DNA from: an uncultured Armatimonadota bacterium
Lineage (GTDB): Bacteria > Armatimonadota > Fimbriimonadia > Fimbriimonadales > Fimbriimonadaceae
Length of the DNA stretch: 64,000 nucleotides
Reading direction: 5' to 3'
Assembly (NCBI GenBank): GCA_903927025.1
Contig: CAIYLG010000052.1
Span: 62,001-126,000, forward strand
Shown: piece by piece, positions 13,082 to 45,917 of the stretch
Position numbering within the stretch: the stretch's first letter is position 1
How the letters are laid out: every line of letters starts with the position of its first letter
The notes under the pieces: generated by a model
Seen by the model: the letters and a program-made list of their open reading frames with translations, nothing else
The model's database searches: none
What the model was told of the DNA's origin: nothing
Made by a program: the position numbers and the translations under genes

Positions 13082-13131
13082 TTGACAAATTCGCATTCAA
13101 ACGATGATACTGAACCAAATGGATCAGTATC
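13082..13131 (+). promoter_or_regulatory. arsR-type promoter with dyad operator over the start codon
   Basis: TTGACA (13082-13087) is followed after 17 bases by TGATAC (13105-13110). GATACTGA (13106-13113) and TCAGTATC (13124-13131) form a perfect 8-base inverted repeat with a 10-base spacer that contains the ATG at 13119. ArsR-type repressors bind such dyads over their own promoters, so this is probably an autoregulatory operator. Transcription should start within a few bases of the ATG, so the message is leaderless or nearly so. Confidence 0.7.
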
Positions 13132-13454
13132 AAGCCGTTTCGCTCAGTGAGGTCTTTCATGCCCTCGGCGATCCCAATCGGTTGGCTATGGTCCACCGTG
13201 CCAGGCAGGGAGAAGTTCCTGCGGGAGAATTGGCGAAGGAACTCTCAATCACCCTGACCGCCACTCTCAAGCACCTCAGCGTGCTGGAAAAGGCCGGGCT
13301 GATGCGCTCAATCAAGGTTGGTCGGGAGCGCAAGTGCTCCTTGGAACTTCAAGCGTTGGGATCCATCGAGGCTTGGATTGAGGAGACGCGGCGCATGTGG
13401 AACCTGCGGATCGACTCCCTCGAAGCCTTCTTGCTTTCGGAGAATGAACAATGA
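13119..13454 (+). CDS. ArsR-family repressor of the SRPBCC-DinB operon
   Basis: 111 residues counted from ATG 13119; an ATG at 13104 is in frame but lies inside the promoter, so I reject it. The winged helix is clear ('VFHALGDPNRLAMVHRARQG', 'ELAKELSITLTATLKHLSVL', then the wing 'VGRERKCSLE'). There are no Cys pairs of metal-sensing ArsR proteins. Members next to SRPBCC (AHSA1-like) genes are common and usually repress their own operon. The stop overlaps the next ATG (ATGA at 13451-13454). Confidence 0.88.
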   Translation: MDQYQAVSLSEVFHALGDPNRLAMVHRARQGEVPAGELAKELSITLTATLKHLSVLEKAGLMRSIKVGRERKCSLELQALGSIEAWIEETRRMWNLRIDSLEAFLLSENEQ

Positions 13455-13903
13455 CTCAAGATGCCAAGGTAGTGATCGAACGGGAGCTAAAGGTGCCCGT
13501 CGACCGTGTATTCAGCGCGTGGACGGACCCCGCAAAGCTTTGCCGGTGGTTTAAGTCGTCTCAAGCCATGAAGATTGAGGCCGCAGACGTTGACCTTCAG
13601 GTTGGCGGAGGCTATCGAATCGTGCTCAAGGATGAAGACGGGGACACCATGGTTGTTTTTGGCCGCTACACGCGCATCGAGCCACCCCAAATCCTCGAGT
13701 TCACCTGGCAGTGGGAAGTGAGTTCCCTAGAGAAGGGGGAAACGCTTGTCCTTGTCGAACTACTTCCCCACACCGTCGGCACGCTGATGCGGCTGACCCA
13801 CACTCGTTTCTCGTCCGAGCGTTCCTACCAGGCCCATGAAATGGGATGGAGCGGCGTTCTCGCGACCCTTACCGCCTTTGTTGAATCCGAGGACCCTTCA
13901 TGA
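13451..13903 (+). CDS. SRPBCC (AHSA1-like) domain protein
   Basis: 150 residues making one START/Bet v 1-like domain of the AHSA1 type. The start 'REL' followed by 'VPVDRVFSAWTDPAKLCRWF' is typical, as are 'GGGYRIVL' and the C-terminal 'HEMGWSGVLATLTAFVE'. These proteins have a hydrophobic cavity for a small ligand; in ArsR-linked operons the ligand is usually unknown. It is translationally coupled to the repressor upstream and the DinB protein downstream through 4-base overlaps on both sides. Confidence 0.87.
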   Translation: MTQDAKVVIERELKVPVDRVFSAWTDPAKLCRWFKSSQAMKIEAADVDLQVGGGYRIVLKDEDGDTMVVFGRYTRIEPPQILEFTWQWEVSSLEKGETLVLVELLPHTVGTLMRLTHTRFSSERSYQAHEMGWSGVLATLTAFVESEDPS

Positions 13904-14367
13904 CACAAACTCAAACATTCACCCCAGAAGCCGCTTCCGCCCTTCGCGGACTCGCCGTATCCAAGCTCCAGGTCGCCCTCAGGCGCGCCAACGCGAGCTT
14001 CGACGCAACTCCTGATGAAAAGCTAGACTATAAGCCGTCGGAAACCGCGAACTCTCCGAGACAGCTCATGCAGCACGTGGTAACTGGCAACGCCTTCGTG
14101 GCAGGCACGCTTGGATTTGACCTTGGCGTCAAAGAGCCAGCCACTGATAGGAGCGAACTAAGCTCCCAGCTGAATCAGACCACACAAGCCATCATCGACT
14201 GCATCGCTAATCTCAGCGACGAGCAGGTCAATGGCAGCGTCGATTTCTTCGGACATCCCATGCCGATGTCTAGCTTTATCCTTGTGGATGAGTGGCATCT
14301 CGCCCGTCACGTCGGCCAGTTGGACTACATCCAAACGATCTATGGGGATATGGAAGATCGGATCTAG
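13900..14367 (+). CDS. DinB-family four-helix protein
   Basis: 155 residues with the DinB/YfiT-like four-helix bundle. The His residues expected to bind metal are visible in 'LMQHVVTGN' and in 'DEWHLARHVGQLDYIQTIYG'. Family members include thiol-dependent S-transferases and proteins induced by DNA damage, but most are uncharacterised. It is the last gene of the arsR operon (ATGA overlap at its start). Its TAG is interlocked with the stop of the convergent methyltransferase gene in the palindrome CTAG at 14364-14367. Confidence 0.82.
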   Translation: MTQTQTFTPEAASALRGLAVSKLQVALRRANASFDATPDEKLDYKPSETANSPRQLMQHVVTGNAFVAGTLGFDLGVKEPATDRSELSSQLNQTTQAIIDCIANLSDEQVNGSVDFFGHPMPMSSFILVDEWHLARHVGQLDYIQTIYGDMEDRI

Positions 14368-15652: not shown

Positions 15653-17731
15653 TTAGTGGCCGCTGCGGAGCTTGTCTTCCATGGCGGAAACGCGCTTGAG
15701 TTCTTCCTCGGTCCCACGGACAATAAGGAAGTTGTCATCGCCGCCGTAGCTCACGGTGTCGATGGTTCCGTGTGTGATGCTGGTGGCGTTGTTCAGGAAA
15801 GTCTTGAACAGGGAAGCGGGAACCCTATAAAGCTTGTTGTGCTTCTGTACCATCTCTGATTCCTGTAGGTTGGCGGGGATGTCGAGCCTTGTGAACACAT
15901 CGGACACTTTGCGCTGGGTGCCATCTGAGGCACTAACGATAACGGCGTTGGTGCGCTTATCCGTCGAGATAGTGACCTGTTGCCTGAAGGCGGCTGCCAG
16001 GACTGCGGCAATATCTTCTGCGGAAGCATTTCGAAGCTGATAGATTCGAATGCTATCGGTATCCGATGGCTTTCGTTTGTTGTCGAGCGCATCAGGCTCC
16101 TGGCCCATGATATCAAGTTGTGTCATGACTTTTCGGATCTGAGGCAGAAGTGCTTCGTCGCAGCTCACGACCACTGTGTTCGTAAAGTCATCCGAAGACG
16201 CCCTTCCTGCCCGCTCTTTCCCGAGGGCAAGCACTTCATTGAGAAGCTTTGCCACGTGCTCTGACTTAGCAAACCGGAGCGCGAAAAGCGTGATTTGAAG
16301 GCTCGGTTTCTTGGCAGGAGTGCTTTGTGCCTGTACTGAGTGAGGTGGAAACAGGGCACTGAGAGTGTTGAAGGCATCGGCTTTGGCCCTGCTCGCCAGG
16401 AGATTTGGTGAGGGTTCGGAACCTGTAGGCTTCTTAGTCACAACCGGTTTGATTGCCTTCGATCTAAACGGAACTGGACTTGTGCTTTGGACCCTGTCCT
16501 GATTCAGTTGGGAGTTGTCCTCCTTGAACGCGTCCAGAGGATGGATTCCGACTTTCCCTGCAAGTGGATCCGCGGACGCCTCGCCTTGAAAGATCCTATG
16601 ACGTACTTCTATGCTCGTACCGGGAGCAGATGACGATGCCGCGACCACGTAAAGAGGGGCCGCACAAATCAAGCAGGCGATCGCGGCGGCAAATCGAGTG
16701 TTGCGACGGGAACGGAGAGTTGAGGGGACTGTAGGTTGTTCGAGCATGGAAATCCTTCTGCGAAGCAGCTTGAATGTGGAGGAGACTCCGGGGGTGCAGA
16801 GAGGGGCCCGCATACTCGCCGCGCCGCTCAGCTTGAGCAGAAGACGGCCATAGAGTTCCGAGCCGACGTTGAGGGAACGAAGGGCAATTTCATCACACGC
16901 AGATTCTCGAGCGAGGAGATACTCGCGGCCAGCAATCCAGGCGATTGGGCTGAAACAGAGGAGCACTTGGGAAAGCATCGGGACGATGCCAAATAGGGAG
17001 TCTCTGCGATGGACGTGGGCAAACTCATGAGCCAACACGATTCTTAACTCATCGTCCGAGCACGCATCCAGGGTCGTAGCGGAAAGCACCACGGATGGAT
17101 GCACAACCCCGACAGTGAAGTCCGTGCCGTCCTCATCGAGGCGAAGCAGGCGGGGCAGCTTTTGCAGGCCGATTTGACCGCGAATCTCCTCCGCGAGGGT
17201 CAGAAGCCTACTGTCGGCAATCGGCTTCGATCCCCTTAAGAGAATCAGTGCCCTCAGCATTTGGATCACCGAAGCCGTGCCGGTTGCGACAGCCGCGAGC
17301 AGCCAACAAAGCAGTCCTGCTGCTTCTAGACTAAGCGAGACAGAAGGTGATTTGGATGGGTGTGAGACTTGGACCTTGGGAACTAGGCTGCCGATTGCGC
17401 CTAAGTTCCTCTCCCCAGGAATCTGGGAAGAGAGTGCGGCACCGTTGATGGGCAGCGTTATTGGTGGTGAAGCAGCCACGACTTCAGAGGCTGAGACCGG
17501 ACGGGGAAGGATCGGGAGCTGAATGGCGGCAGGTGTGAGTGCGAAAAGCATCCGCAGGCTGACCAGGAGCCAGAGGGTACTTCGGACTCCGCTAGGCATC
17601 CGCTTCCAAATCCGGGTCAATAACCAGACACTTCCTAAGGCAGCCGCGCCCTGCCAAGTCGCCCGCCAAAGCGCGCTCAGTACCGGTCCGGATAAGGAGT
17701 TGAGTGCATGCGCGAGACTGCTCAGGTTCAA
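15653..17731 (-). CDS. M56 (BlaR1-like) membrane metallopeptidase fused to secretin-type repeats
   Basis: 692 residues. The N-terminal half is a BlaR1/MecR1-like M56 peptidase with membrane helices (about 20-40, 52-72, 135-163, 248-268), the zinc motif HEFAH at 235-239 and 'RESACDE' at about 275-281. Known BlaR1 proteins cleave or trigger cleavage of their BlaI repressor. A fourth hydrophobic segment lies near 350-370. The C-terminal part has no penicillin-binding sensor. Instead it has two repeats like the N1/NolW domains of secretins ('LFALRFAKSEHVAKLLNEVL ... TNTVVVS' and 'IRIYQLRNASAEDIAAVLAA ... TNAVIVSA'). The start overlaps the BlaI-like stop by 4 bases, so the two act together. Confidence 0.85.
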   Translation of the reverse strand: MNLSSLAHALNSLSGPVLSALWRATWQGAAALGSVWLLTRIWKRMPSGVRSTLWLLVSLRMLFALTPAAIQLPILPRPVSASEVVAASPPITLPINGAALSSQIPGERNLGAIGSLVPKVQVSHPSKSPSVSLSLEAAGLLCWLLAAVATGTASVIQMLRALILLRGSKPIADSRLLTLAEEIRGQIGLQKLPRLLRLDEDGTDFTVGVVHPSVVLSATTLDACSDDELRIVLAHEFAHVHRRDSLFGIVPMLSQVLLCFSPIAWIAGREYLLARESACDEIALRSLNVGSELYGRLLLKLSGAASMRAPLCTPGVSSTFKLLRRRISMLEQPTVPSTLRSRRNTRFAAAIACLICAAPLYVVAASSSAPGTSIEVRHRIFQGEASADPLAGKVGIHPLDAFKEDNSQLNQDRVQSTSPVPFRSKAIKPVVTKKPTGSEPSPNLLASRAKADAFNTLSALFPPHSVQAQSTPAKKPSLQITLFALRFAKSEHVAKLLNEVLALGKERAGRASSDDFTNTVVVSCDEALLPQIRKVMTQLDIMGQEPDALDNKRKPSDTDSIRIYQLRNASAEDIAAVLAAAFRQQVTISTDKRTNAVIVSASDGTQRKVSDVFTRLDIPANLQESEMVQKHNKLYRVPASLFKTFLNNATSITHGTIDTVSYGGDDNFLIVRGTEEELKRVSAMEDKLRSGH

Positions 17732-18117
17732 TTTTCCTCCCTCCTACCAGCATCAAGCTTGGCAACCAGCCGTTCCAATTCCGCGGCTTCATCTGGCGTG
17801 AGATTGGATCGCTGTACGAAGTGACTGACCAAAGGAACGAGCGACCCGCCGAGGGTGTTTTGAACAAACTGCTCGACGAGGCCTCCGACCACTTCGTGAT
17901 GTTCCATCGCGACTTGATAGCGAATGAGCCCACTGTCCGCAACCTTGAGCAGGAAACCCTTCTTATGAAGTCGGGCGAGGACGGTCTCAATCGTGCTCCG
18001 CGCCAAGCCATTCGGCTCGCCAAAGTGAAGCGAAGCTTCGCCGGTGGTGGTGGGCCCGCGATTCGCGACGAAGCGTAAGAGGGCCAGTTCCTGATCTCCC
18101 AAAGTTGTGCGTTTCAT
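17728..18117 (-). CDS. BlaI/MecI-family repressor
   Basis: 129 residues with a winged helix ('LGDQELALLRFVANRGPTTT', 'ARSTIETVLARLHKKGFLLK') and the C-terminal dimer part ('LVPLVSHFVQRSNLTPDEAA', 'ELERLVAKLD') usual in Penicillinase_R proteins. It should dimerise on TACA-N2-TGTA sites and be inactivated when the M56 partner senses a signal. Two such sites lie over its own promoter. No beta-lactamase gene lies nearby, so the signal may be envelope stress rather than a drug. Confidence 0.9.
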   Translation of the reverse strand: MKRTTLGDQELALLRFVANRGPTTTGEASLHFGEPNGLARSTIETVLARLHKKGFLLKVADSGLIRYQVAMEHHEVVGGLVEQFVQNTLGGSLVPLVSHFVQRSNLTPDEAAELERLVAKLDAGRREEN

Positions 18118-18127
18118 AGCGGTCTCA

Positions 18128-18173
18128 CTACAAGTGTAGGGATACTTTACGAATACGTCCCTACACTTGTCAA
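18128..18173 (-). promoter_or_regulatory. Promoter of the BlaI/M56 operon with two operator dyads
   Basis: On the minus strand, TTGACA (18173-18168) and TAAAGT (18149-18144) are 18 bases apart. CTACAAGTGTAG (18128-18139) and CTACACTTGTCA (18161-18172) each match the BlaI/MecI pattern TACA-N2-TGTA; the second has one mismatch. The two sites are also arms of a larger perfect 13-base inverted repeat (18130-18142 with 18158-18170). One covers the -35 and the other the start of transcription, which is the expected layout for autorepression. Confidence 0.8.
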
Positions 18174-43286: not shown

Positions 43287-43442
43287 GCAAACTCTACCGG
43301 GTAACTCGACAGATTTCTATCATTAGTTTTCGGTCTGGTTAATAGTTCCTTTCCTGATCTTCATAACGACTTCATGAGTCGCCTGCACCATGGACCTGTA
43401 GGATTTGCCGTTAGACGGACGCAATCCTCAGTTGAGTTCGAG

Positions 43443-45917
43443 ATGCAAAAGACCCGATCAAACCTAAAGCGCCTTGCCTGTGCGGCAATCTTCCTTCCCA
43501 TCATGGCGTTTGCGCAATCAGACAGCGTATTCGATAGCGGAAGTCTGAGCGATCCTTGGGAGGAGCTAACCCTCAACCCCAAAACTAGGATCAAGCTGAG
43601 TTTTCGAAATGCGAACGTCGATAACGTGATCGCGATGATCGAGCAGGCGGCCGGAGTCACCTTGGTAAAGGACCCAACCTTGACGGGACCCATCACCGTC
43701 ACAACTTCCAAACCCGTCAGTCTTACTCAAGCGTTTTATGTCCTTGACTCGGTGTTGCGGCTACACGGGTTTCAGATCAGTCGGCAACGACAAATTTTGG
43801 TCATCAAGGCGATCCCGAAGGCAACCGGGCGTCAAAACGGACCTCCAGGCGGTGGTGGTCCGGGTGCAGGCGCAAATGGGCCCGGCGGAGGTTCTCAAGT
43901 GAAGTTCTATCCGCTTCAATACGCTAGCGCAAGTCAAGTTTCGCGTGCCATCAACGAGGTGTTTCAGTCGGGAACCGCCAACGGCGGCGGACGTGGAAAT
44001 GGCAATGGATTCGGATTTCCAGGAGGTAACGCAGGAGGCCCCGGAGGCAATATCCCTGGCGGACCTGGTGGAGGGCCTGGAGGCGGGCCCGGCGCAGGAT
44101 TTCCCGGATTCGGCAATGGACAGGGGGGCGCTCCAACCATCCAGATTAACGTCGGCGCGGGAACGGTGAGAGCCTCCTATGAGGAGTTCAGCAATTCAGT
44201 CATCGTAAACGCTCCTGCCGCCCAACAGTCTCAAGTGGCTGATTTGATCAAACAGATTGATAAGCCGCAGACGCAGGCAGTTCACTCGAAGACCTACGCG
44301 CTAATGTATTCGAGCGCGACGGATTTGGCGACGGTCATGCAGAACGTCCTCACCGCCAATTCCAGTAAGGGGCGTGGCACGACCGGATCGACAACCACTC
44401 AGCAGGGCGGCGGTTTTGGTCCTTTTGGCGGGCAGGGCGGAGGCACATCTCAGTCCACAACCGTGGCCGTTGCAGACACGCGCACCAACTCCCTGATTGT
44501 TACTGGCAACGATGACCAACTCAAATTGGCGGATAAGGTTGTTGCAGACCTGGACCGTAAGGTGCCATTTACAACAACGACTTTTGTGTTCCAGCTTCAG
44601 AATGCTCGGGCAGACACTGTCGCTAACTTGCTGACGGCGGCATACGGGCAGCGTCAAGGTGCTTCTTCGAGCCGAACCACGACGATCACGCCCACCAATA
44701 ACACTTTCTCGAGCTCCTCCTCGACGAAGTCCACCTCTGGGGCACCAGCTGCAAATTCGCCGACTGACCAGGGCATGGCGATCAAATTGCAGGACCCAAA
44801 TGCTCAGAGTGGAGACTTGCTCACATCGGTGGGAGTCACCCAGGGTTTTGGGGGCGGTATGCAGCAGAGTAGCCAGGCACGGTCTGGCTCTTCCTCCAGT
44901 TCGTCAACCACCGCGAACGGTCAATCGATGGGTTACGATGCCAGCGGAAAGATCACTGGAGTTCACGACCTCACCGGGCAGGTGACCGCAATCGCGGATC
45001 CAAACACAAATTCTGTGATCATCGTGACTTCTCCAGACAACGCGGACCTTGTTAAGAGCGTCATGGATCAGTTAGATCGGATTCCAGAACAGGTGATGAT
45101 CCAGACCGTCATTGTCGAAGCAACGTTGGACAAGAGCAGCCAGTTTGGTTTAGAGTGGTCGTTTGCACAGAGCAAGCTTCTCGGCAACAAAGGCGTCTCT
45201 GGAACCGGCACCCAGGGCTTTGGTCTCCAGAATGCAAGCCCTGCGCTTACCGGCTTTAGCTATGTTCTCAGCGGAGGCGACCTGTCTGCCTTCTTTAACA
45301 TGCTCCAGACCAACACGAAGTATCAGGTGCTGTCTACCCCTCGGATCTTTACTTCGAACAATATGCAGGCTCAGATCAACATCAGCCAGAGTATTCCGTA
45401 CATCGTCAGCACCATTCAAAACACCAACGGAACCACTAGCTACAACTATGCCTTCCAGGATGTGGGAATCGTACTTACTGTGACGCCGCACATCACCAGC
45501 AACGGATACGTGACGATGGATGTAACGCAGACAGCGAATGACCTTCAGGGCTACACCTCTTTCAACGCGCCGATCGTGAACCAGCGCGAAGCGACGACCA
45601 CCATTTCGGCAAAGGATGGTGAGACGATTGTTTTGGGAGGCATGATCCGAAATCAGGTGACAGCGTCGGTAAACAAAGTTCCGCTGCTGGGAGATTTGCC
45701 CCTGCTTGGAAGCCTGTTCCAGTCGAAAACGAACTCCAATCAAAAGACAGAACTGCTGGTCTTCCTCAATCCAAAGGTGGTCCGAGATCCTGCCGAGGCT
45801 AAGAAGATTAAGGACGATACGCAGGCGCAGGTGAGCCCAGAGATCCTTCAGATGCTAAAGGACCAGACAAAGCCTGCCGACAAAATCGTTAAGAAGACCC
45901 CATCCGGCGGAAAGTGA
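43443..45917 (+). CDS. gspD: Type II secretion secretin GspD
   Basis: 824 residues counted from ATG 43443, which gives a clean signal peptide ('RLACAAIFLPIMAFAQ'); an upstream frame to 43374 is not needed. Domains in order: N0 ('VDNVIAMIEQAAGVTLVKDP'), N1, N2, N3 (each with the 'V.....A..V...L' pattern), then the secretin pore domain ('EQVMIQTVIVEATLDKSSQF', 'VLSTPRIFTSNNMQAQINIS', 'GETIVLGGMIRNQVTASVNK'). Long Gly/Ser/Thr-rich insertions sit inside N1, N2 and N3 (about 43846-43905, 43978-44145, 44360-44460 and 44660-44960). It forms the outer-membrane gate for type II secretion or pilus assembly. No other gsp genes are beside it; a lipoprotein gene overlaps its stop (GTGA). Confidence 0.93.
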   Translation: MQKTRSNLKRLACAAIFLPIMAFAQSDSVFDSGSLSDPWEELTLNPKTRIKLSFRNANVDNVIAMIEQAAGVTLVKDPTLTGPITVTTSKPVSLTQAFYVLDSVLRLHGFQISRQRQILVIKAIPKATGRQNGPPGGGGPGAGANGPGGGSQVKFYPLQYASASQVSRAINEVFQSGTANGGGRGNGNGFGFPGGNAGGPGGNIPGGPGGGPGGGPGAGFPGFGNGQGGAPTIQINVGAGTVRASYEEFSNSVIVNAPAAQQSQVADLIKQIDKPQTQAVHSKTYALMYSSATDLATVMQNVLTANSSKGRGTTGSTTTQQGGGFGPFGGQGGGTSQSTTVAVADTRTNSLIVTGNDDQLKLADKVVADLDRKVPFTTTTFVFQLQNARADTVANLLTAAYGQRQGASSSRTTTITPTNNTFSSSSSTKSTSGAPAANSPTDQGMAIKLQDPNAQSGDLLTSVGVTQGFGGGMQQSSQARSGSSSSSSTTANGQSMGYDASGKITGVHDLTGQVTAIADPNTNSVIIVTSPDNADLVKSVMDQLDRIPEQVMIQTVIVEATLDKSSQFGLEWSFAQSKLLGNKGVSGTGTQGFGLQNASPALTGFSYVLSGGDLSAFFNMLQTNTKYQVLSTPRIFTSNNMQAQINISQSIPYIVSTIQNTNGTTSYNYAFQDVGIVLTVTPHITSNGYVTMDVTQTANDLQGYTSFNAPIVNQREATTTISAKDGETIVLGGMIRNQVTASVNKVPLLGDLPLLGSLFQSKTNSNQKTELLVFLNPKVVRDPAEAKKIKDDTQAQVSPEILQMLKDQTKPADKIVKKTPSGGK

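Follow-up and report, generated by a model that had tools for sequence, protein, structure and literature searches.

Fimbriimonas encodes a BlaR1-type membrane protease that ends in an array of secretin N1-type domains, and this fusion of an M56 peptidase with Secretin_N is real and rare among the M56 tails sampled. The gene (15653..17731, minus strand; 692 aa, TTG start) lies in the window, i.e., the whole 64-kb stretch of DNA that was analysed, from the 5.25-Mb genome of a soil bacterium of this genus. Receptors of the BlaR1 type are best known for detecting beta-lactams. We consider it slightly better than an even bet, with a probability of roughly 55%, that the protease and its BlaI partner form a self-regulating module of the BlaR1/BlaI type in which the drug sensor has been replaced by a periplasmic secretin-N1 contact sensor on a flexible tether.

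The protease and its repressor

The Peptidase_M56 domain occupied residues 20-330 (16742..17674, minus strand) and included the zinc-binding and catalytic motif HEFAH (residues 235-239; 17015..17029, minus strand), which fell in invariant columns of the alignment. Residues H235, E236, H239, E276, D280 and R326 were kept in 7 aligned relatives, with a spacing identical throughout to that of H201/E202/H205/E242/D246/R294 in S. aureus BlaR1 (PMC9834060). A profile of the M56 part retrieved S. aureus BlaR1 (8exp, E 5.9e-18) in a PDB sequence search, and the AlphaFold2 model aligned on BlaR1 8exs with a VIA Z of 20.0 over 252 residues (3.4 A). Hydropathy and the model helices predicted a scaffold of four transmembrane helices, the last of which (TM4) spanned residues ~339-365 (16637..16717, minus strand). 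By analogy with BlaR1, we infer an inner-membrane protein whose zinc site faces the cytoplasm; since the secretin-type tail comes after the last transmembrane helix, it should lie in the periplasm.

The adjacent gene (17728..18117, minus strand) encodes a BlaI/MecI-type repressor of 129 aa, which matched MecI 1okr (E 1e-7), the alignment being gap-free from residue 40 onwards. Its stop codon overlaps the TTG start of the protease gene, placing both genes in one operon. At the BlaI cleavage site described in the literature (PMC9834060), the P1' residue is Phe102, and its aligned counterpart in this BlaI is F100. An earlier note on this DNA, made from the letters alone, had described a BlaR1-like protease with a BlaI partner, and that description was borne out by the Pfam matches of both proteins (M56, E 5.1e-31; Penicillinase_R, PF03965, E 3.1e-22) and by the overlap of their genes. 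Given the catalytic spacing, the sequence and fold match to BlaR1, and the retained P1' Phe of BlaI, the chemistry of the BlaR1/BlaI pathway looks intact in the Fimbriimonas pair.

A tail of secretin N1-type repeats

Behind TM4 followed a linker of ~110 residues (residues ~366-476; 16304..16636, minus strand) that was predicted to be disordered, with AlphaFold2 pLDDT <50 for residues 358-476. Beyond it, Pfam assigned Secretin_N (PF03958) to two stretches of the tail with E 1.2e-22 and 80.3 bits, against a curated cut-off of 28.2. Repeat 1 (residues 478-541; 16109..16300, minus strand) was supported by Pfam, the AlphaFold2 model, fold match and HMM, and repeat 2 (residues 560-617; 15881..16054, minus strand), which contains the motif DKRTNAVIV, coincided with the best Pfam stretch (562-620). 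A third, degenerate N1-type repeat (residues 633-690; 15662..15835, minus strand) was recognised by alignment with the orthologue described below and with GspD N3; its HMM match was weak (E 0.006) and its fold was predicted at low confidence. The earlier note had counted two N1/NolW-like repeats; their secretin type was upheld by both sequence and fold, but the units number three.

In a PDB sequence search, a profile of the tail matched secretins only, the best being E. coli GspD 5wq7 (E 5.4e-16). AlphaFold2 folded the tail units as beta-alpha-beta-beta-alpha, and Foldseek/VIA matched the models to the N-domains of GspD, ExeD, XcpQ and PilQ (e.g., ExeD, 57 residues at 0.8 A), with Z scores of 10-11 for the predicted structures against GspD N1/N2. 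All of the top 33 VIA rows were N-domains of the secretin family, so that structure prediction, which might have returned an unrelated fold, came out on the side of the earlier note. When the tail alone was aligned, its units matched in order N1-N2-N3 of the GspD encoded in the window. The secretin pore domain (PF00263) was absent from the protein according to Pfam, and the tail had no match among plasmids.

No penicillin-binding domain was detected in the protein by Pfam, NCBIfam or the fold search of the tail. Besides weak overlapping matches to other metalloprotease families, Pfam reported M56 and Secretin_N only, and the NCBIfam model blaR1_generic scored 68 bits against a cut-off of 400; the claim that the sensor is not of the penicillin-binding kind was thus sustained by the domain content as well as by the secretin folds of the tail.

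Conservation and rarity of the fusion

The same fusion, which the earlier note had suggested seeking in other genomes, was found in a second Fimbriimonas species. This orthologue (L043; JARLGV010000015.1, Fimbriimonas MAG_BO249, genome G012) has the same architecture and the same overlapping blaI at 35-37% overall identity, and Pfam placed Secretin_N in three stretches of it. The tail has diverged faster than the protease between the two species (31% vs 43% identity), and the neighbours of the receptor gene differ. Scanning genome contigs with the single protein returned nothing, and a two-species profile returned the orthologue along with distant M56 proteins bearing unrelated tails. With a threshold of E 1e-12, the tail profile matched in just 2 of 255 Armatimonadota genomes, this one and G012. 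We also surveyed this set of 255 genomes for M56 proteins, scoring the best five candidates per genome in addition to the earlier loci. The 82 tails classified, mostly from Armatimonadota, comprised two with Secretin_N and 11 with STN/N0-type domains, the commonest other tail being a carboxypeptidase-regulatory-like domain. The literature searched yielded no M56-secretin fusion.

Such rarity would fit a chimeric assembly or a decaying gene, in which an M56 gene and a piece of a secretin gene had come together by accident. We regard this explanation as very improbable, as the architecture and the overlapping blaI recur in another species at 37% identity, which argues against an assembly artefact, and as the frame is open and the catalytic residues are conserved.

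Sister receptors with N0/STN tails

The 11 M56 proteases with one to three N0/STN domains (G000:C22:65227-67463 [L041], L018, L019, L021, L024, L025, L027, L029, L101, L120 and L133) all came from Fimbriimonas or its sister genus. Among the neighbourhoods read, those of L041 and L042 had a blaI overlapping or adjacent to the protease gene. In the protease tree the N1-tailed pair stood beside a relative with a double STN tail (support 100/98), and five changes of secretin-type tail were needed overall, indicating that secretin modules came and went several times in this lineage. As the 11 relatives also show, secretin modules were added to BlaR1 proteases here more than once. These sister receptors share with the N1-tailed protein a related protease, a secretin-derived tail and, in the neighbourhoods read, an overlapping or adjacent blaI, but their tails consist of STN/N0 copies rather than N1 and the operator of their main clade is different. 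The STN-type M56 match at L018 (G019:C74) is interrupted by a single in-frame TAG, at which the gene may be disrupted or misassembled.

The operator of the main STN clade was GACTAYN4RTAGTC, unlike CTACANNTGTAG, and in the 4 genomes where it was seen it occurred as a tandem pair only before the clade's own blaI. The tandem operators GACTAYNNNNRTAGTC lay upstream of the STN-type blaI genes (L171, L173, L174 and L175) and nowhere else in those four genomes, indicating that the STN-type BlaI has a private operator specificity.

Operators of the BlaI circuits

Upstream of blaI in the window we found a sigma-70-like promoter, TTGACA-18-TAAAGT (18144..18173, minus strand). An imperfect operator, ACAAGTGTAG (18161..18170, minus strand), overlaps its -35 box, and the predicted BlaI operator CTACACTTGTAG, a perfect palindrome (18128..18139, no strand assigned), then follows. 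Within the 64-kb window TACANNTGTA occurred once only, at blaI, and the orthologous blaI has the palindrome CTACAGCTGTAG at the same place before the gene. Three exact CTACANNTGTAG operators were present in the 5.25-Mb genome: at this blaI, at another blaI-M56 pair and within one reading frame. The last of these, on contig C48, was rejected as a regulatory site, being inside a coding frame and probably a chance match. In G012 the exact palindrome preceded two genes only, the orthologous blaI and the equivalent of the other blaI. Sites with a single mismatch, where examined, were mostly in coding frames.

The other pair (G000:C2:241430-241466, L054) carries CTACANNTGTAG and a near copy 25 bp away. 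Cross-talk between its operator and the BlaI of the window is possible. The protease of that pair has a tail without a secretin-type domain.

Since exact operators were located at blaI genes, the N1-type and STN-type BlaI circuits appear to be separate from each other and self-regulating, and no regulon was visible for either; an exact search could overlook weaker sites. The suggestion that BlaI adjusts the expression of envelope genes was therefore not supported, as exact operators stood only before blaI genes, apart from the one coding site.

Relationship to secretins

The gspD of the window (43374-45917) is a real, full GspD-type secretin gene according to Pfam, and Fimbriimonas has been reported to possess LPS genes, a diderm envelope and a T2SS (PMC4072686). 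The neighbours of gspD encode a methyltransferase, an aminotransferase, a transhydrogenase and a sugar kinase, and no other gsp gene was among the neighbours examined. No exact BlaI operator was located near gspD in the window, and no exact operator was located at any secretin gene in the whole genome. The genome's two other long secretins scored at least as well against the tail as did the GspD of the window; derivation of the tail from the nearby gspD was not supported, the other two being about as similar. The link that had been drawn to gspD at 43 kb found no backing in operator position or gene neighbourhood, and no specific backing in sequence similarity. Long secretins numbered 3 and 4 in the two N1-tailed species. 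Genomes with secretin-tailed receptors had a mean of 6.4 secretins vs 3.6 in those without, but they were also larger, and once genome size was controlled the co-occurrence of receptor and more secretins was not significant (partial correlation 0.33, p 0.16). Elsewhere in this genome (G000:C8:100793-103069; L074, L077), a gene for a 562-aa secretin is closely preceded by a short ORF whose product is secreted and has two STN-like stretches.

Proposed mechanism and alternatives

Computation showed the two domains with their folds, a complete set of catalytic residues, an operon with blaI, a conserved operator and the rarity of the fusion; the mechanism that we propose is as follows. BlaI would bind sites of the CTACANNTGTAG type at the promoter of the blaI-protease operon and repress it, and the zinc site of the protease, an inner-membrane protein, would face the cytoplasm. 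When the periplasmic N1 array gained or lost a protein-protein contact, the state of the protease would change, and BlaI would then be cleaved near H99/F100, derepressing the operon. Proteolysis of BlaI, topology and derepression would follow the BlaR1 pattern; contact sensing by the N1 tail, and the partner contacted, we infer only. As the outside sensor is built of domains otherwise known from a secretin export pore, what it perceives is probably not a drug but a second envelope protein touching it. The most natural candidates for a partner would be proteins that carry or bind secretin N-domains, i.e., secretin subunits or their inner-membrane partners, by analogy with the STN-tailed FecR/PupR regulators; a secretin would be plausible. 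C-terminal STN domains of anti-sigma factors are known to take up a signal from a protein of the outer membrane (PMC7186176, PMC11637429). The anti-sigma factor PupR binds its outer-membrane transducer through a C-terminal STN domain that acts together with its neighbour, both being required (PMC7186176), and STN domains have been described as binding one another and inner-membrane partners (PMC11637429). Against the contact-sensor reading, the exact operators showed no downstream regulon genome-wide, repeat 3 is degenerate and the tail is diverging faster than the protease. Because M56 tails are very diverse in the phylum, the tail may also be one of many interchangeable binding modules with no secretin link.

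The reading closest to the earlier note is a checkpoint on secretin assembly, in which the N1 array would dock on secretin subunits that are free or wrongly assembled, and BlaI would tune the expression of genes for secretins or the envelope. The secretin type of the tail would fit it, as would a diderm host with several GspD-type secretins, among them the long ones of the N1-tailed species. We nevertheless find it doubtful, given that no secretin gene has an exact operator, gspD is unlinked and isolated, secretin number tracks genome size without a significant partial correlation, and the tail is not specially close to any of the genome's own secretins. Of the envelope-watching role formerly suggested, what survives is that the tail type and the STN precedent favour protein-contact sensing; nothing ties the receptor to secretin assembly. 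The wider version, in which Fimbriimonas N0/N1-tailed proteases would dock into the secretin subunits' N-domains, or keep a count of them, as a proteolytic checkpoint on assembly, seems to us equally speculative. Alternatively, the N1 repeats might dimerise or cluster the receptor, the true signal being something else, such as membrane stress or another ligand. N1-N3 are the ring-building motifs of the secretin cylinder and pack side by side in secretin rings (PMC9239104), and BlaR1 acts as a dimer (PMC9834060), but relatives of the same subfamily carry N0/STN domains instead and a 110-residue tether is ill suited to rigid dimer coupling, which leaves self-association rather unlikely.

The absence of a visible regulon also bears on what the circuit is for. 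If BlaI controls its own operon only, the circuit would set the amount of protease, for other substrates, or of the tail as an assembly factor. Exact operators lying only at blaI genes and one coding site, in this species and its sister species, and the same pattern in STN-type circuits, would agree with this, but looser operators elsewhere would escape detection and single-mismatch sites were inspected only in part; we hold the idea as tentative, with the odds against it.

Comparison with known systems

The proposed contact-sensing module shares with BlaR1/MecR1 and BlaI/MecI the protease fold, the HExxH...E...D and Arg spacing, the BlaI partner, a tail behind TM4 that is expected to be extracytoplasmic, and a repressor operator over its own promoter. 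Unlike BlaR1/MecR1, the Fimbriimonas protein has an N1 array on a disordered tether in place of a penicillin-binding sensor, and no beta-lactamase or PBP gene is attached. The tail resembles N1-N3 of GspD, PulD and XcpQ in repeat sequence, fold and tandem order, but it lacks N0 and the pore domain and is joined to the C-end of an inner-membrane protease. FecR and PupR are likewise inner-membrane regulators with a periplasmic C-terminal secretin-related domain that signal by regulated proteolysis; they are, however, anti-sigma factors with STN whose partner is a TonB-dependent transducer. Their combination of an N-terminal anti-sigma domain with a C-terminal STN was not found in the M56 protein, which has M56 and N1 instead, and the receptor would at most work like FecR/PupR without being a member.

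As the secretin N0/N1-tailed set shows, sensors taken from machines of the envelope can be mounted on the protease-repressor chassis. These receptors are also concrete, testable candidates for the way in which a bacterium might monitor a secretin or other ring by protein contact. If the secretin-checkpoint reading were true, they would represent a signalling class whose receptor bears a copy of the machine's ring-building domain.

Elsewhere in the window (13104-14367), an ArsR-type regulator, an AHSA1-domain protein and a third short ORF come one after another in overlapping order; the group looks like an ordinary operon.
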